A stretch of DNA of 40,784 bases, taken from contig JAJYIM010000018.1 in NCBI GenBank assembly GCA_021790115.1, positions 1 through 40,784 of the forward strand, read 5' to 3'. This document shows positions 4,510 to 32,310 of the stretch, piece by piece (positions within the stretch are counted from its first letter, which is position 1; each line of letters starts with the position of its first letter). Below the pieces are notes generated by a model. The model saw nothing but the letters and a program-made list of their open reading frames with translations. It did no database searches and was not told where the DNA came from. This DNA is from Actinomycetes bacterium. GTDB lineage: Bacteria; Actinomycetota; Thermoleophilia; BMS3ABIN01. The translations under genes and the position numbers were made by a program.

Positions 4510-5181
4510 CTATTGTTTGACCTCGACAGGCAGGCCTTTGGCGCGCCAGTCAGGCACGCCGTCCGACAAGCGTGATGCCGTAAAACCGTTTTTACGCAGC
4601 ATTTCAACCGCTTCGATGGCCAGCACGCAATAGGGTCCGCGGCAGTATGCCACGATCTCGCGGTCGCGCGGCAGTTGGGTCAGCTTTCGCTTAAGCTCCG
4701 CCAGGGGTATTGATATTGCTCCAGGAATGTGGCCGGCCTGGAACTCCACGTCCGGCCGCACATCGAGCACGGTCACTTCGCCTTTTTTTGCCCGCCGTAC
4801 GAGGACGTCGCGGTCCACCGCCTCCATGACACCGCGTTCCCTTAAATACTGCCGGGTGACCTGCTCAATCTCCAGCAGCCGCGACTCCGCCAGCTCGCGC
4901 AGTGCCACAAAGAAGGCGCAGACTTCTTCGCCCGCCAGGCTGTAAATTACATGAACGCCTTCCCTTCGGGCCTCCACAAGCCTTGCCCTTCTAAGCACCT
5001 GCAGATGGTGCGATGTGTTGGCCACCGACTGGCCAACCTGCCCGGCAAGCGCCTCCACGGTCCGCGGACTCTGGCACAGCAGGTCGAGGATCTCCAAACG
5101 CGGCCCCGCCGACAGCGACTTGCCAATGTGCGAAAGCTGCTCGTAGATATCATTTTTGAATTGACGGGAAGATGAGGTCAT
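4510..5181 (-). CDS. ArsR-family regulator fused to a rhodanese domain
   Basis: This 223-residue protein has an ArsR winged helix at residues about 10-95 (helix-turn-helix ALAGQVGQSVANTSHHLQVL, wing REGVHVIYSL). A rhodanese domain follows at about 120-220 with active-site loop YCRGPYC, preceded by VLDVRPDVEFQAGHIPGA. Such fusions are thought to sense sulfane sulfur or sulfur species through the rhodanese cysteine. It starts at ATG 5181 after AAGGAAAA. It sits directly upstream of the selenoprotein flavoprotein on the same strand (70-bp gap), so it is the likely regulator of that operon and of itself through the operator at 5200-5211. Confidence 0.92.
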   Translation of the reverse strand: MTSSSRQFKNDIYEQLSHIGKSLSAGPRLEILDLLCQSPRTVEALAGQVGQSVANTSHHLQVLRRARLVEARREGVHVIYSLAGEEVCAFFVALRELAESRLLEIEQVTRQYLRERGVMEAVDRDVLVRRAKKGEVTVLDVRPDVEFQAGHIPGAISIPLAELKRKLTQLPRDREIVAYCRGPYCVLAIEAVEMLRKNGFTASRLSDGVPDWRAKGLPVEVKQ

Positions 5182-5964: not shown

Positions 5965-7116
5965 TTACAAATACTTCCAAAACCAATATTTTTCGAAACC
6001 GATTTTCCCCCAGTGGAGCAGCCTGCTCGGTTTCCGTGCTTCAATCCTTGGATCGGGTTTCGCATAGAAGTTTCCTTTGGCTAATCCCGCCGTTCCCTTG
6101 CCGGTCTCGATGAAACAATAACCTTCGCCCAGATAGGGTTCAGGCATCGCGCTTCTCTTGATATGAGCTGCAATTTCGGCTGCCACTATTTCAGCGTGTT
6201 TGTGGGCAAAAACTCCCGCCTTTGGCAGCATTTTGCCATTGGGCAGCTTGATTGCGGTTGCGTCACCTATGACAAATAAATTCTCGTGCTTTGTGGCCAG
6301 TGTGCCGGGGTCAACCGGTACCCATCCGCCTTCGCCGGTAAGACCGGCATCTCGAACAACCTGAGCACACCCGTGGGGAGGAACATAAAAGAGGAGGTCG
6401 TACGGCACAACTTCGCCACCTTCCAGACTTAAATGATTTAAATCAGGGTCAAACGAAGTGATGGTCGCGTTATTGCGGCAGTTGATGCCTCTGGGCTTTA
6501 TCATGGAAACTATTGCTTCGCCCATTGCCGGGCCCGCCGTGGGCATCGGCGCTGGCTCCCAGGTAACGATCTCGATCTCAACCATGGTTCTTATGCCCCT
6601 TCGGCGAAGCATATCATCAACAATGAGTGCCGCCTCATAAGGTGCAGCCGGGCACTTATAAGGCTTTCGGCAAATGGCGATAACAATTCGGCCGCCCTGG
6701 AACTTCAAGAGCTCTCGATAAGCTGCTTCCAGCCCGTCGGCTGTGTAGATATTGATACCCGTGCAGCAAAGACCCGGGATAGTCTCCGGTTCCAGATCGG
6801 CACCCAAGGAAACTACAAGGTAATCGTAACCGAGCTCAATGTCATCAACCTGTATCTTGCCCGCAGCGGGTTCTATCGATGAGACATTGCCTTGAACAAA
6901 CTCGATGCCCTTTTTAACTAATCCGGATAAATTTCTCTCGACTTGGACAGCGCTGCGCTTGCCATTTAGAATCCATACATAAGAACCAGTAAAACTGTGG
7001 GCCGGGCTTTGATCAATAACGGTGATGCGGTCTTCCTTAAGAAATGAACGAAGCTTATTTGCTGCCACAACACCACCAATGCCCCCACCTAACACCAGGA
7101 TCGCCTTGCCAGCCAT
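5965..7116 (-). CDS. SQR-like FAD/NAD(P)-dependent oxidoreductase
   Basis: This 383-residue flavoprotein has the dinucleotide-binding motif LVLGGGIGGVVAA at the N-terminus, the second FAD motif LFVIGDATAIKLPNGKMLPK near residue 300, KCPAAPYEAA near residue 185, and an aromatic amphipathic tail (GFEKYWFWKYL) suited to membrane contact. These fit the sulfide:quinone oxidoreductase and flavocytochrome c sulfide dehydrogenase group. It is a paralogue of the flavoprotein half of the selenoprotein at 2803-4440 but has no redoxin domain. The start is ATG 7116, preceded by GGAGG. Whether it uses sulfide, polysulfide or another thiol compound cannot be told. Confidence 0.88.
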   Translation of the reverse strand: MAGKAILVLGGGIGGVVAANKLRSFLKEDRITVIDQSPAHSFTGSYVWILNGKRSAVQVERNLSGLVKKGIEFVQGNVSSIEPAAGKIQVDDIELGYDYLVVSLGADLEPETIPGLCCTGINIYTADGLEAAYRELLKFQGGRIVIAICRKPYKCPAAPYEAALIVDDMLRRRGIRTMVEIEIVTWEPAPMPTAGPAMGEAIVSMIKPRGINCRNNATITSFDPDLNHLSLEGGEVVPYDLLFYVPPHGCAQVVRDAGLTGEGGWVPVDPGTLATKHENLFVIGDATAIKLPNGKMLPKAGVFAHKHAEIVAAEIAAHIKRSAMPEPYLGEGYCFIETGKGTAGLAKGNFYAKPDPRIEARKPSRLLHWGKIGFEKYWFWKYL

Positions 7117-7972: not shown

Positions 7973-8305
7973 CTACCCGGCGCCAACCTTGCGAGATAGC
8001 CGCTCCGTTGCCTTAAGCTGGTTGAGAAGAACGCTGCGCATCAGTTCGCACGCCTGGATGATCTTCGGGTCAGTTACGTGGTAATAGACATTAATCCCTT
8101 CCCGCCGGGTGGCGACTACCTGACGCTGCTTGAGGATTGCCAGATGCTGAGCAAGGTTGCCCTTGGCGACACCCAGCACGTGCGTCATGTCCGTGACCGT
8201 CATTTCCTTGTTTCGCAGCGCGTTCAGGATGGCCAGGCGCGTCGGGTGGGCAAAAGATTTGCATACCTCCGCATGCATTTTGAGTATTACGTTATCCTCA
8301 TTCAT
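7973..8305 (-). CDS. ArsR-family transcriptional regulator
   Basis: This 110-residue winged-helix protein has helix 1 KSFAHPTRLAILNALRN, recognition region THVLGVAKGNLAQHLAIL and wing REGINVYYHV. It has two cysteines, Cys15 in the N-terminal helix (AEVCKSF) and one in the C-terminal helix (IIQACELMRSVLL), which could form a metal or thiol-reactive site. It heads the methyltransferase, SQR and DsrE genes and probably controls them. I see no clear operator in the 86 bp upstream. Confidence 0.9.
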   Translation of the reverse strand: MNEDNVILKMHAEVCKSFAHPTRLAILNALRNKEMTVTDMTHVLGVAKGNLAQHLAILKQRQVVATRREGINVYYHVTDPKIIQACELMRSVLLNQLKATERLSRKVGAG

Positions 8306-9660: not shown

Positions 9661-9975
9661 TTAGTGGCTGCTGCAATTTTTTATGCTTCGTGCATTTTCA
9701 TTCATACAGCCGCAGGTGCATATCCTGTTCAACCGTAACCGGGCTTTTTCCAGGGCGTCACGGTCCAGCGAATAATAGATCCAGTAACCCTTTCGCTCAT
9801 CCCTGACCAGTCCAGCGCTTTTTAGCACGCGCAGGTGCTGGGAAACCGCCGACGGGGTGACGCCAAGAGCTTCAGCCATGGCGTTGACGCTCATGCTGTC
9901 CTTTTTCAGCAGTTCGATGATCTCGATCCTTTTATCAACTGCCAGTATTTTGAATAGTTCAGCTGATTCTTTCAT
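9661..9975 (-). CDS. ArsR-family regulator with C-terminal CxCxC motif
   Basis: The winged-helix protein has helix 1 ELFKILAVDKRIEIIELL, recognition helix EALGVTPSAVSQHLRVL and wing ERKGYWIYYSL. It ends with a cysteine-rich tail RICTCGCMNENA and a further Cys near the end. Starting at ATG 9975 gives 104 residues; TTG 9987 is the alternative. The clustered cysteines suggest binding of a thiophilic metal or metalloid. It is divergent from the selenocysteine ArsR at 10140 and lies upstream of the Cys-rich peptide with the same CxCxCM word. Confidence 0.9.
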   Translation of the reverse strand: MKESAELFKILAVDKRIEIIELLKKDSMSVNAMAEALGVTPSAVSQHLRVLKSAGLVRDERKGYWIYYSLDRDALEKARLRLNRICTCGCMNENARSIKNCSSH

Positions 9976-9993
9976 CGCCCCTCGCAATTTAAG

Positions 9994-10094: not shown

Positions 10095-10114
10095 ATATAA
10101 ACTTCGATTTATAT
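10095..10114. promoter_or_regulatory. Probable operator of the selenocysteine ArsR gene
   Basis: A perfect inverted repeat ATATAAA-CTTCGA-TTTATAT lies 26 bp upstream of ATG 10140. AT-rich dyads of this form are typical ArsR/SmtB binding sites. A separate perfect 12-bp palindrome, CCCAAGCTTGGG, lies at 10052-10063. Confidence 0.5.
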
Positions 10115-10139: not shown

Positions 10140-10445
10140 ATGAATGCCCCAGTCGAAACTATCGCAGACATCTTTAAAACGCTATCAGATGCTAACCGGC
10201 TGCGAATTATCCGGGTGCTGACCATGGACTGCCGGTCGGTGTCCATGATTGTAGAAGAGACGGGCCTGTCGCAGCCGCTGGTATCGCACCATCTTCGGGT
10301 CCTGCGCGAGGCCGGTTTGGCCCGGGCCGAAGGCCGGGGCGCTTTTACGTACTACTGACTAAGTGACGTGGCGGTCTGGAAGACCGTTGAAAATTGTGCC
10401 CAGATTGTGAAACTGGTCGAAAAGGCAGCGGCTGCGGGCAGCTGA
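10140..10445 (+). CDS. Selenoprotein candidate: ArsR/SmtB-family regulator with in-frame Sec codon
   Basis: ATG 10140 opens an ArsR winged helix: IFKTLSDANRLRIIRVL, recognition region IVEETGLSQPLVSHHLRVL, wing EGRGAFTYY. TGA follows at 10356-10358 (codon 73). The frame then stays open for 28 codons, reading LSDVAVWKTVENCAQIVKLV to TGA at 10443-10445. This supplies the usual YYxLSDxxVxxxxE end and the C-terminal dimerisation helix, giving the normal family length of 101 residues. A SECIS-like hairpin follows the TGA. AAAGGAGGG of the next gene begins 2 nt after the final stop. Sec73, Cys31 and Cys86 could form a redox or metalloid-sensing site. The alternative is an Arg codon CGA mutated to TGA. 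Terminating there would give a 72-residue protein without the last helix. Confidence 0.72.
10356..10386 (+). promoter_or_regulatory. Sec UGA codon and putative bacterial SECIS hairpin (ArsR)
   Basis: After TGA 10356-10358, CGGTCT (10372-10377) pairs perfectly with AGACCG (10381-10386) around the loop GGA at +20 to +22. Two G-T wobbles can extend the stem to 8 bp. The loop position and the leading G meet the bacterial SECIS consensus. Confidence 0.7.
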
Positions 10446-10458
10446 CAAAGGAGGGATC

Positions 10459-10704
10459 ATGAACAAAATGATGGAAAAAATGATGTCGGCGATGATGAAG
10501 CCGGAAGATATGCCCGGGATGATGAACATGATGCTGGACAAAATGTTTTCCCAGATGTCCGGAGAAGACCGAATTCAGTTCATCTCCACGATGATGCCCA
10601 AATGCCTGGATATGATTTTTGCCGAGCTGGATGCTGATGCCAAAGAGCGGGTTGCACGTGAGTTTTTGGGCAGGATGAGCCGGAAGCTGGAGGACCAACT
10701 GTAA
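10459..10704 (+). CDS. Methionine-rich small protein of unknown function
   Basis: AAAGGAGGGATC precedes ATG 10459. The 81-residue product has 18 methionines, mostly in pairs in the first 33 residues (MNKMMEKMMSAMMKPEDM, MMNMMLDKM), and one Cys (MMPKCLDM). It is predicted helical and soluble, with no signal peptide. Met-rich stretches can bind Cu(I) or other soft metals or act as oxidant sinks. I do not recognise a family. It lies 13 bp after the Sec-ArsR gene and is probably in its operon. Confidence 0.7.
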   Translation: MNKMMEKMMSAMMKPEDMPGMMNMMLDKMFSQMSGEDRIQFISTMMPKCLDMIFAELDADAKERVAREFLGRMSRKLEDQL

Positions 10705-10799
10705 ATTTCAGCCTCGGCCGGGATGCCACGCGGGAAGAACTGGTGAAAGCTGCAGAGCTTATCGGGCGCGCCGTTTCCAACAAAAAGGGAGATTTGTGA
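10662..10799 (+). pseudogene. Possible remnant of a cysteine desulfurase (NifS/IscS-like) C-terminus
   Basis: A frame overlapping the end of the Met-rich gene reads TVNFSLGRDATREELVKAAE and ends with TGA at 10797-10799. This resembles the conserved C-terminal segment of NifS/IscS proteins (VRFSLGRxTTxEEIDxA). There is no start and no upstream body of the enzyme. I read it as debris of a lost gene. The similarity covers only about 25 residues. Confidence 0.35.
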
Positions 10800-10800
10800 C

Positions 10801-11457
10801 GTGACAGACAAGGAAGTGCTAAGCAAACAACAAGATCACTGGGTAAAGACGTTCGCGAGCAAGCCGGACATGTTCGGTACCATGCCAAGCGATGCCGCCC
10901 AAAAAGCTGCAGCCTTGTTTTTGAAAGAAGGAAAAACAGAAATTCTTGAACTCGGTTGCGGCCAGGGGCGCGATACGTTCTTTTTCGCAGAAAGCGGCTT
11001 TCAGGTTCATGCCCTGGACTACTGTAAAAGCGGCCTCGATGCTCTCGGCGAAAAAGCAGAGACCACCGGCTTCACTGGGGTCATCAATCCCGTTTGTCAT
11101 GACATCCGCCGGCCGCTCCCCTTTGCCGGCAATACGTTTGACGGCTGCTTCTCGCATATGCTCTATTGCATGGCTCTCACAACCAAGGAGCTAAAGTTTC
11201 TTAGCGGCGAGATCCGGCGGGTTTTAAAACCAGGCGGGCTGAATGTCTTCACCGCCAGGAACACCAGCGACGCCCACTACGGCGCCGGAATTCACCGGGG
11301 TGAGAACATGTACGAGATGGGCGGTTTTATTGTCCATTACCTCAGCAAGGACAAAATCGAGGAACTGGCTGATGGCTTTGAGATCATCGGCATCAATGAA
11401 TTTGAGGAAGGCGAGCTTCCCAAGAAATTGTTCCGCGTGACCATGCGGAAAAAATGA
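10801..11457 (+). CDS. Class I SAM-dependent methyltransferase
   Basis: This 218-residue protein has motif I EILELGCGQGRDTFFFAESG near residue 50, HALDYCKSGL at the end of strand 2, CHDIRRPLPFAGNTFDGCF, and RRVLKPGGLNVFTARN. Its general layout resembles TehB-like and thiol or metalloid methyltransferases. The start is GTG 10801, after AAAGGGAG. It overlaps the DUF2284 gene by 4 bp (ATGA), which implies translational coupling. Downstream of a Sec-containing ArsR protein, methylation of a selenium, tellurium or arsenic compound is an attractive but unproven role. Confidence 0.85.
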   Translation: MTDKEVLSKQQDHWVKTFASKPDMFGTMPSDAAQKAAALFLKEGKTEILELGCGQGRDTFFFAESGFQVHALDYCKSGLDALGEKAETTGFTGVINPVCHDIRRPLPFAGNTFDGCFSHMLYCMALTTKELKFLSGEIRRVLKPGGLNVFTARNTSDAHYGAGIHRGENMYEMGGFIVHYLSKDKIEELADGFEIIGINEFEEGELPKKLFRVTMRKK

Positions 11458-11837
11458 CCGTGGACCAAAAGACAATGTTGCTTGATAAGGCGCTCGAATT
11501 GGGGGCCGACCGGGCAAAGTTGATCGATGTTGATACAGTAGTTGTGGAAGAATGGGTTCTGTGGAAATGCCAGTACGGCTGTCTGCTATTTAACAAGGAC
11601 ATGCTTCATCCCCCCTGCTCGCCAGGCGTGGAAAGCACAAGCAAAGTTCTGAGTGAATACAAAAAAGGCATCCTGCTAAACAGCCCCAAGGAAAAGGAGC
11701 TGAGCCGGATCGCCCTTAAGCTTGAAGGCGAGGCCTACCATCGCGGCTATTACAAGGCCTTTGCCATGATCGCGCTGTCGTCGGCGGCTGAAGTGGCGGC
11801 GGCATCAGGAGATGATTCCGCTCCCGGAGCCACCTGA
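11454..11837 (+). CDS. DUF2284 metal-binding protein, C-terminally truncated
   Basis: The frame begins at ATG 11454, overlapping the previous stop. It shows the DUF2284 pattern: Cys pair in WKCQYGC, then the PPCSPGVEST loop where most members have CPPYSP, and GYYKAFAMIALSSA. In the family this leads into a second cysteine cluster and a conserved end. Here the protein instead runs into Ala/Ser-rich sequence and stops at 11835-11837. Serine-recombinase sequence follows in the same frame, so the 3' end was probably lost by a deletion or insertion. It is likely non-functional or altered. Confidence 0.7.
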   Translation: MTVDQKTMLLDKALELGADRAKLIDVDTVVVEEWVLWKCQYGCLLFNKDMLHPPCSPGVESTSKVLSEYKKGILLNSPKEKELSRIALKLEGEAYHRGYYKAFAMIALSSAAEVAAASGDDSAPGAT

Positions 11838-12884
<1,047 letters not shown>

Positions 12885-29590: not shown

Positions 29591-30688
29591 ATGCGGATGG
29601 ACATGAACAGAAGGGATTTTATCAGGCTGTGCGGGGGAACAGCGGCCATGCTGGGCCTCTCTTACAGTTGGGTGCCCGAGATCGCCCAAGCGTTGGAGCA
29701 GGCAGCCAAACGGCCGCCGGTCATCTGGATGAGCTTCATGGAATGCACCGGCTGCCTGGAGTCCTTTGCCAAGTCGGTCAACCCGTCAACGGCTGACATC
29801 GTGCTTGATATCATCAGCCTCAATTACCAGGAAAATATCATGGCTGCGGCCGGCACCCAGGCTGAGGCAGATCTAAAGAAGACCATCGGCCAGGGCGGAT
29901 ATATTGCCGTAATTGAAGGGGCCATAGCGGTAGGAATTCCTGAAGCCATGATGGTGGCCGGCAAAACTTCCCTGGAGCTGGTAAAAGAGCTGACCCAAAA
30001 TGCAGCCGCCACGCTTTGTGTAGGGACCTGCGCCGCTTACGGCGGTGTGCAGGCCATGAGGCCCAATCCTACCGGCGCCAAAGGCGTAAAAGATGCAATC
30101 GGGGCCAAAACAGTCAACGTGCCGGGATGTCCGCCCAACCCGGCGCATATGCTCCCGACCATTGTCCATTACCTGCTCTTTAACAAAATTCCGGATTTGG
30201 ATAGCGACGGCAGGCCGTTGTTCCTGTACGAGCAAAAAATCCATGATAACTGCGAACGCCGCGCCCATTTTGATGCGGGCAGATATGTCACCCAGTTTGG
30301 CAGCAAGGAAGAGACGCTGCAGTATTGTCTTTACAAAATGGGCTGCAAGGGTCCGGAAACGCATTCCCCCTGCCCCAAGACCCTTTGGAATAACAAACAG
30401 AGCTGGTGTGTCAAGTGCGGAAACGGCTGTATCGGATGCATGGAGCCCAACTTCTGGGACCGCTTCGAGGATTTTTACCAACAACTGCCCAATGTTCCCA
30501 TACCCGGCTTTGTGGGAGTTGAGACCTCGGCCGACTGGATCGGCTCGACCCTCGTCACCGCCACCATGGCAGGCGTTGGCATTCACGCCGTAACCACAGC
30601 GGCAAAAGGCAGGTTCAAGAAACACCCGGAAGAGGGCGAAGGGCCGCCGCCAGCCAAAACCGAAGCAAGTCAAGGGAGTGAGGACTAA
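29591..30688 (+). CDS. Group 1 [NiFeSe] hydrogenase small subunit
   Basis: This 365-residue electron-transfer subunit begins with a Tat signal (NRRDFIRLCGG). Proximal cluster ligands are in MECTGCLES, LCVGTCAAYGG and PGCPPNP; the Gly in CTGC indicates an ordinary, not oxygen-tolerant, proximal cluster. The distal cluster region is HDNCERRAHFD through CLYKMGCKGP. The medial cluster region reads SPCPKTLWNN, then SWCVKCGNGCIGC. A Cys stands where [3Fe-4S] enzymes have Pro, so a [4Fe-4S] medial cluster is expected, as in other [NiFeSe] enzymes. A C-terminal hydrophobic helix (about 315-340) anchors it. AAGGAGG precedes ATG 29591. It overlaps the large subunit start by 1 bp. Confidence 0.96.
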   Translation: MRMDMNRRDFIRLCGGTAAMLGLSYSWVPEIAQALEQAAKRPPVIWMSFMECTGCLESFAKSVNPSTADIVLDIISLNYQENIMAAAGTQAEADLKKTIGQGGYIAVIEGAIAVGIPEAMMVAGKTSLELVKELTQNAAATLCVGTCAAYGGVQAMRPNPTGAKGVKDAIGAKTVNVPGCPPNPAHMLPTIVHYLLFNKIPDLDSDGRPLFLYEQKIHDNCERRAHFDAGRYVTQFGSKEETLQYCLYKMGCKGPETHSPCPKTLWNNKQSWCVKCGNGCIGCMEPNFWDRFEDFYQQLPNVPIPGFVGVETSADWIGSTLVTATMAGVGIHAVTTAAKGRFKKHPEEGEGPPPAKTEASQGSED

Positions 30689-32310
30689 TGGCCAGGATTG
30701 TGGTAGATCCCGTGACCAGAATCGAAGGGCATCTCCGGGTCGAGGTGGAGGTGGATGGCGGCAAGGTCAAGGACGCATGGACCACCTGCACTCTCTTCCG
30801 CGGTTTTGAGATTTTTATCAAGGACCGGCCCCCGCTGGATGCCTGGCATATCGCCCACCGCATTTGCGGAGTCTGCCCCACTTCTCACGGACATGCGGCC
30901 ACCATGGGTCTGGAGAATTCCTTTAATGTCACGCCTCCCGGAAATGCCGTTCTGATCAGGAATCTGATGGAGGCTGCCCAGCAGTTGCATTCCCACGTTC
31001 TCTGGTTCTACACGCTCAATGCCTTTGATTATGTGGACGTGCTCAGCGCTCTTTCGGCGCAGCCGTCCACGCCAGCCCTCAAAACGGTCCAGGACCGTCT
31101 CAAGGCGTTTGCCGACAGCGGCCAGCTTGGCTTTCTTGACGGCGGCTACTGGGGTCATCCGGCAATGAAGCTGCCGCCGGAGATGAACCTGGAGCTGACG
31201 GCTCACTACCTGCAGGCGCTCGCCATCCAGGCAAAAGCGGCGCAGGCGCTGGCGGTGTTCGGCGGCAAATTCCCCTACCACATGTCCACGCCGCCCGGCG
31301 GCGTCACGGTGGTTCCATCACTGCAGGATATCGAGAACTTCGAATTCATCATGAAAGAGGTCACCGACTTTGTTCGCAACGTATTTGTCCCGGACGTCCT
31401 GGCGGTGGCGCCCTACTACATCGACCATGCCACTTTTGGCAAGGGCGTCGGCAATTTCCTCAGCTGGGGAGTGCTGGAAGATGTCGACAGCCGCGATCCT
31501 TACAAACGCGCGCTTCCCCGGGGAGCCATTTTTGGCGGGCAGCTAAAAGTGGAACAGGTTGATCCAAGTGAGGTTCAGGAGTACGTGTCACACAGTTGGT
31601 ACACGCACGATTCCGGCGCCGGTAAAAATCCCGGCAGCAATAACGCCACCACCGCGCCGCAATATACAAAGGTTGACACGAATGACAAATACACTTGGGC
31701 CAAGACAGCGCAGATAAAGAACAAGCCGATGGAAGTGGGCACGCTCGCCAGGATGCTGATCGCCTACCTGTCGCCAAACGCTCCTTATTACGCGACCGTC
31801 AAGTCGCTGGTGGACTCGACCCTGCAGGCCCTCGGGTCGGCCGGCAAGCCGGAAATTTTGATATCGGCGCTGGGACGGATCGCCACCAAAGCACTGGAAT
31901 CAGTGTTGATAGCAGACAAGGCGGAGGCTGACTTGGCACGGTTGAAGCAAAATATCAAGGACGGCGATAACAACTGGTTTAATCCCAAAGGTCACGATGT
32001 GCCGGATGCCGGCGCAGGCGTGGGCGCCTGGGAGGCGCCGCGCGGCGCCCTGGCCCACTGGAACCGGATCGAGGGCGGCAAGATAGCATCCTACCAGGCG
32101 GTTCCCGCATCCAACTGGAACTTCTCTCCCCGCAATGACCAGGGTCAAAGGGGCCCGGTGGAGGAAGCGCTGGTGGGGACTCCGGTGGCCGACGCCGCCA
32201 AGCCGTTGGAGGTGCTGCGGGTGATTCACACGTTCGATCCATGAATTGCCTGTGCGGTTCACGTGATTGAACCAAAAACCAACAAAATCATCAAATTCCA
32301 AGTCCGGTAG
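30688..32310 (+). CDS. Group 1 [NiFeSe] hydrogenase large subunit, selenoprotein (Sec519)
   Basis: This catalytic subunit (540 residues) oxidises or produces H2. The N-terminal ligand motif is HRICGVCPTSHG. The C-terminal one is TFDP-U-IACAVH, with TGA at 32242-32244 in place of the first Cys codon of DPCxxCxxH. The frame then reads on to TAG at 32308-32310. The last 15 residues (VIEPKTNKIIKFQVR) after His525 are the peptide removed by the maturation protease, of the usual length. Stopping at the TGA would delete two of the nickel ligands, so recoding is required for function. A SECIS-like hairpin follows the TGA. Confidence 0.97.
32242..32273 (+). promoter_or_regulatory. Sec UGA codon and putative bacterial SECIS hairpin (hydrogenase)
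   Basis: After TGA 32242-32244, GGTTCA (32256-32261) pairs with TGAACC (32268-32273) around a 6-nt loop CGTGAT beginning at +18. A G stands at the second loop position. This satisfies the bacterial SECIS consensus. Confidence 0.88.

Follow-up and report, generated by a model that had tools for sequence, protein, structure and literature searches.

The window, a stretch of 40,784 nucleotides from an Actinomycetes bacterium, contains a gene predicted to encode a selenocysteine (Sec)-containing repressor of the ArsR/SmtB family (positions 10140-10445, forward strand, 101 codons plus stop). Comparison with homologues indicates that UGA codon 73 encodes Sec and that this arsR is a genuine selenoprotein gene. 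We propose, with a probability of about 0.7, that its product is a homodimeric repressor of a metal(loid)-methylation operon, and that Cys31 and Sec73 form a two-ligand thiol/selenol site for sensing a soft metalloid.

The reading frame and its selenocysteine codon

The frame reads MNAPVETIADIF...GAFTYY-U-LSDVAVWKTV...AAAGS-stop. Codon 73 is TGA (10356-10358, forward strand) and is located at the end of wing strand β3. After the stop codon (10443-10445) come AAAGGAGGGATC and then the next ATG, at 10459. An earlier note on this DNA had described a TGA at codon 73 of an otherwise intact ArsR frame, a 101-residue read-through product with a C-terminal helix, and a frame end just ahead of the ribosome-binding site of the next gene; our analysis agrees on each point. 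The AF2 model of the read-through protein has a mean pLDDT of 96. Its secondary structure elements follow the order α1-α2-α3-αR-β-β-α5, the winged helix-turn-helix of the ArsR/SmtB family, and the C-terminal α5 spans residues 77-100. The closest solved folds found with Foldseek are CzrA and SmtB. The protein also scores 74.5 bits against NF033788, the general metalloregulator subfamily of NCBIfam, above the cut-off of 55. Annotation probably records the gene as a truncated ArsR of 72 residues, and standard pipelines would therefore miss it.

The earlier note expected YYC or YYU-LSD at this site in homologues if the codon is Sec, and Arg or Ser with an unconserved hairpin in close homologues if it is not. 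In 15 intact copies from 14 genomes this codon is TGA, and in three copies (L057, L172 and L174) it is Cys; the hairpin is conserved, and one additional copy is decayed. The Sec forms come from Actinomycetota, Chloroflexota, Armatimonadota and Bacillota, and share about 40-86% identity with the window protein. Searching 149 related genomes, we obtained nine more loci that align with the read-through and contain a single in-frame TGA. In the translated homologues the TGA is always found in the motif (Y/F)Y-U-L. Further Sec forms came from scanning 84,980 named genomes, in Chloroflexi, Armatimonadetes and 'unidentified bacterium isolate 10', which is the same genome as our G274 and shares its phylum with the window; the scan also picked up a Cys form in Alicyclobacillus montanus. 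The Alicyclobacillus order yielded another Cys form and two additional Sec forms, and Armatimonadota a third Cys form. Sec and Cys forms interleave within one Bacillota clade (support 100/99). Such interleaving is a hallmark of real selenoproteins, and supports Sec at TGA73. Most of the homologue genomes are metagenome-assembled (MAGs), and independent assemblies agree.

The Sec machinery and the sequence beyond the TGA were also analyzed. All 14 Sec-form genomes have a SelB that scores above the curated cut-off; A. montanus and the genome with the decayed copy (G550) fall below it. Two Cys-form genomes, G812 and G912, contain SelB. SelA and tRNASec were looked for in the window's own genome, where selA, selB and tRNASec are located side by side. 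Coding after the TGA is constrained. L74 is conserved, and dN/dS in these short segments is 0.06-0.5, below 1 in every computable pair.

Two candidates from these searches were rejected. The TGA in G107 is near the protein end, well past the YY-x-L motif (YYYV there), and is an ordinary stop. The Chloroflexota locus L160/L175 in G550 has UGA at both 31 and 73 and a perfect hairpin downstream, in decayed flanks. It was discarded as a double-Sec form, as its N-terminus is decayed, its methyltransferase half is deleted and its genome has no SelB above the cut-off. It is apparently a selenoprotein regulator decaying after Sec use was lost. A tblastn search of plasmids returned distant ArsRs only.

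The SECIS-like hairpin

Sec insertion at UGA73 would be directed by a SECIS-like hairpin just downstream (10372-10386, forward strand). It has a 5-bp core stem, a loop of TGGAA and, in the window, a sixth T-A pair. With this pair included it is the perfect 6-bp hairpin that the earlier note reported, CGGTCT-GGA-AGACCG, in which the GGA loop starts at +20 after the TGA (10378). A minimal stem of 5 bp with a 5-nt loop is found at +14 to +28 of the TGA in each Sec form. Loop position 2 corresponds to G29 of the alignment and is G in every case; the next base is G or T. These features match the bacterial SECIS model (PMC13188914).

Since the stem is coding, its pairing was compared with a null in which synonymous codons were redrawn at local codon usage. 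Across the 15 Sec copies 74 of 75 pair cells form, against a mean of 56.5 and a maximum of 69 in 20,000 draws, although the test overstates the independence of these phylogenetically related homologues. The downstream hairpin is thus conserved, a point on which the earlier note had sought evidence. Three of the five stem pairs show compensatory changes (CG/UA, GC/AU and CG/UA), and the signal is lost when the partner strand is slid. At the same positions, 27 ArsRs without Sec or Cys at that codon form about 2.0 of the 5 pairs on average. The Cys forms have four pairs (L057) and, by reading the sequences of the other two, three and one, as if the hairpin were no longer kept in them. For the single window sequence P is about 0.14 under the codon-preserving null, so the window hairpin alone is not decisive.

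These data bear on whether TGA73 is Sec at all. It could instead have arisen by recent nonsense mutation or sequencing error, or be a true stop producing a functional 72-residue protein, with an incidental hairpin. TGA is formally a stop, the hairpin is non-significant for a single sequence, and the locus with two in-frame TGAs is decayed in a genome without SelB above the cut-off. However, 15 copies over four phyla have TGA at this codon and others have Cys, L74 and the C-terminal coding are under constraint, SelB is present in each Sec-form genome, and the hairpin covaries. A TGA73 that is not Sec is therefore highly improbable.

According to the earlier note, two other Sec codons in the window share the hairpin geometry. 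Both codons exist. One is in the large subunit of a [NiFeSe]-type hydrogenase (30688-32244 and onward; FDPUIACAVH, TGA at 32242-32244). Its hairpin is clear, with 6 bp (GGTTCA/TGAACC) and a loop that starts at +18 and contains CGTGA, as in several Sec-arsR hairpins. The geometry at the other codon, in a DUF2284 gene, is less clear.

The Cys31-Sec73 pair and what it may sense

The codon of Cys31, the proposed partner of Sec73, is located at 10230-10232 (forward strand), in the α2-α3 loop. Cys31 and Sec or Cys at position 73 are both invariant in the family. Among 119 distinct ArsRs, Cys31 accompanies Sec or Cys at 73 in 14 of 14, and neither site is Cys or Sec in the other 105. The Fisher value for the association, 1.7e-18, is inflated by the relatedness of the ArsRs, as the 105 comparison proteins are not phylogenetically independent; the pattern itself is without exception. 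Cys and Sec forms found after this count obey the same rule. The invariance of Cys31 in the family and its absence from the other 105 suggest that the two residues act as a pair. DSSP assigns residues 32-33 of the AF2 model to a strand or bridge and 69-74 to the second wing strand. In winged helices, the strands holding these residues neighbor each other. The model thus makes a Cys31-Sec73 contact likely. The earlier note had placed Sec73 in a sensing site with either Cys31 or Cys86. The first pairing agrees with the invariance of Cys31. Cys86 is present in the window, L048-L050 and a few others, and was rejected as a general partner.

We propose the following mode of action for the repressor. 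In the absence of ligand, the dimer would bind a candidate operator upstream of arsR, the inverted repeat ATATAAA-N6-TTTATAT (10095-10114, forward strand), and repress its own operon, which encodes a Met-rich protein, an MduS-like methyltransferase and a DUF2284 selenoprotein. Conservation of the repeat is limited to close relatives: L048 and L049 have it at an equal distance, and L050 has a variant. Cys31 and Sec73 would be bridged by a soft trivalent metalloid; methylarsenite or arsenite is the most likely ligand, and Hg(II) a possible one. The bridge would tie the wing to the recognition-helix unit, and the DNA would be released. Downstream genes vary, so the ligand may differ between family members.

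As(III) usually requires three thiols, and the conservation of only two ligands here counts against the proposed mechanism. The three-Cys sites of As(III) ArsR types 1-3, C32/34/37 in R773, C95/96/102 in AfArsR and C15/16/55 in CgArsR (PMC11868830), are not matched, as only Cys31 and Sec73 are invariant. The two-ligand site favors methylarsenite, for which ArArsR is the nearest precedent.

Redox sensing is the main rival to metalloid sensing. Peroxide, polysulfide or electrophiles would produce a reversible Cys31-Sec73 selenenylsulfide that alters DNA binding, similar to the disulfides of RexT, BigR and SqrR. Cys and Sec are a classic redox pair, the thiol-redox sensors RexT (PMC8960804), BigR, SqrR and HlyU are ArsR relatives and are among the fold matches, and DsrE-like and DF-family selenoproteins are found in L048 and L049. 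However, the neighboring genes belong mostly to methyltransferase and metal/arsenic families (ArsM, MbdU, MduS, DUF2284, MerTP and ArsC) and not to peroxidases or thioredoxins. We consider redox sensing unlikely, though a serious contender.

A different role was suggested in the earlier note, that the regulator reports selenium status. Read-through would make the amount of active repressor depend on how much selenium is available; when it is lacking, a product of 72 residues would be made and the operon derepressed. Termination at the UGA would delete residues 74-101, including α5, which is the dimer helix in the ArsR/SmtB family, and selenoproteins are among the products of the controlled operons. 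However, the Cys forms keep the same operon with its downstream methyltransferase, both with SelB (G812 and G912) and without it (Alicyclobacillus), indicating a conserved function independent of selenium. The strict coupling of Cys31 to residue 73 would be needless for gating alone, and derepressing selenoprotein genes when selenium is lacking makes little sense. A dedicated selenium switch is therefore improbable, and this claim of the earlier note is not upheld. Since the 72-residue product would lack α5, dependence on selenium is probably a consequence and not a purpose, and selenium gating is possible as a side effect.

Operon context and comparison with known systems

The metalloid-sensing role that we favor agrees with the neighboring genes. 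Directly downstream of arsR is a gene for a Met-rich 81-residue protein of no known family (10459-10704, forward strand), conserved in L048 and L049. A methyltransferase related to the MduS N-terminal domain follows (10801-11457, forward strand; 267 bits, below the family cut-off of 380). The next gene encodes the DUF2284 protein (11454-11837, forward strand) and contains its own terminal Sec codon (UPTG, a UxxG motif; TGA at 11835-11837). It is truncated about 8 residues later, and the intact Sec-containing copies in L048 and L049 are about 62 residues longer. MduS-like methyltransferase genes are located downstream of the ArsR with Sec or Cys at 73 in the window, L048, L049, L057 and L171-L174. 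An MbdU-family gene is directly downstream in six actinobacterial loci, and is the second gene in L050. In an Armatimonadetes MAG (L055), the Sec-ArsR gene is directly followed by one for the arsenite methyltransferase ArsM, with Sec in its UxxG motif (UIAG; 660-1439) and then by a MerTP-like gene. In L064, the gene between the Sec-ArsR and an MtaA-like methyltransferase has an in-frame TGA (GNUIPV; 6281-6720) and encodes a small CopZ-like protein of the heavy-metal-associated type. An ArsR-ArsC gene is present in L174, with ArsC assigned by eye. The view in the earlier note that the operon suits metalloid handling is supported by these MduS, MbdU and DUF2284 families, the Sec-type ArsM, MerTP and ArsC.

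Several other features were observed around these genes. A (seleno)protein of the DF family, whose gene has a TGA at GFSU-RLF, is encoded in the same operon in L048 (6598-6897) and L049 (6879-7172). The gene is absent from the window or has been deleted there, and positions 10705-10800 contain only an unassigned open frame of about 30 codons. About 8 codons after its Sec codon (UPTGEE), the DUF2284 gene continues without a frame change into sequence for the C-terminal portion of a serine-type recombinase (11835-12845). The recombinase frame ends on a tRNA-Pro gene (12808-12884, minus strand), an arrangement that suggests a degraded integrated element. Three more ArsR-family genes are located near the Sec-ArsR on the minus strand (9661-9987, 7973-8305 and 4510-5181). 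One has a CTCGC C-terminus, and one is fused to a rhodanese domain.

No transcription factor with selenium in its likely sensing site seems to have been known before the Sec-ArsR. Of the 119 prokaryotic selenoprotein families tabulated in a 2026 review, none is an ArsR or another helix-turn-helix regulator, apart from FmdB, a 'putative regulatory protein' from a different, unrelated family. No Sec ArsR model in NCBIfam 20.0 matches, and we found no Sec ArsR or Sec transcription factor in the open-access literature. On balance, we favor the view that these proteins form a new family of DNA-binding selenoprotein regulators in which Sec itself is the sensing ligand. They would provide the first selenium-based transcriptional sensor site, present in several phyla and with Sec and Cys swappable; its signal would probably be a trivalent methylarsenical or another soft metal(loid). 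Almost every characterized selenoprotein acts as an enzyme or electron carrier. Finding Sec conserved in a winged-helix repressor would mean that selenium chemistry also serves gene regulation and metal(loid) sensing. The natural Sec/Cys pair within one family could show what Sec adds to the affinity, selectivity or speed of a sensor, and the Sec-ArsR offers a clue to the signals to which the poorly understood selenoproteins MbdU, MduS and DUF2284 respond.

Among named ArsR families, TsoR (NCBIfam NF045707) is closest to the window protein and to several relatives; by its name it belongs with the tso selenoproteins. The window protein scores 86.7 bits and five relatives 59.5-87.2, against a cut-off of 115, and membership was rejected. 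The non-Sec relative nearest to TsoR (L058, 109.7 bits) has Lys31 and Gln73, with no Cys/Sec pair. The metal sites of CzrA and SmtB are formed by His, Asp and Cys on α5 or α3N. They are located away from positions 31 and 73, where CzrA has Glu and Ser in a profile alignment. The two proteins share the fold and are the best sequence and structure matches to the window ArsR (PDB 1r1u, 6cdb and 1smt; TM 0.71-0.78, identity about 30-34%).

Among the 30 best loci from 395 Bacteroidota genomes searched for ArArsR relatives with a Cys31/Cys73 pair, none has it, and 31 Bacteroidota loci have Cys or Sec at neither position. In our alignment, Cys41 of ArArsR corresponds to R773 Cys32, about two residues after Cys31 of the window protein. 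ArArsR from Arsenicibacter rosenii controls arsRMC and binds methylarsenite with Cys41 in the N-terminal loop and Cys82 in the β-sheet (PMC11868830). Like the window ArsR, it is the repressor of a methylation operon and takes its ligands from the N-terminal loop (Cys41) and the β-sheet (Cys80/Cys82), and methylarsenite needs one of each (PMC11868830). Unlike the window ArsR, its site is all-cysteine, with no Sec. MduS, MbdU, ArsM-DUF2284 and ArsM, which are also neighbors of the Sec-ArsR, share with it a UGA followed by a hairpin, Cys homologues and a metal/metalloid context (PMC13188914, Table 1). They are methyltransferases or metal-binding proteins, whereas the Sec-ArsR is predicted to be a DNA-binding regulator.
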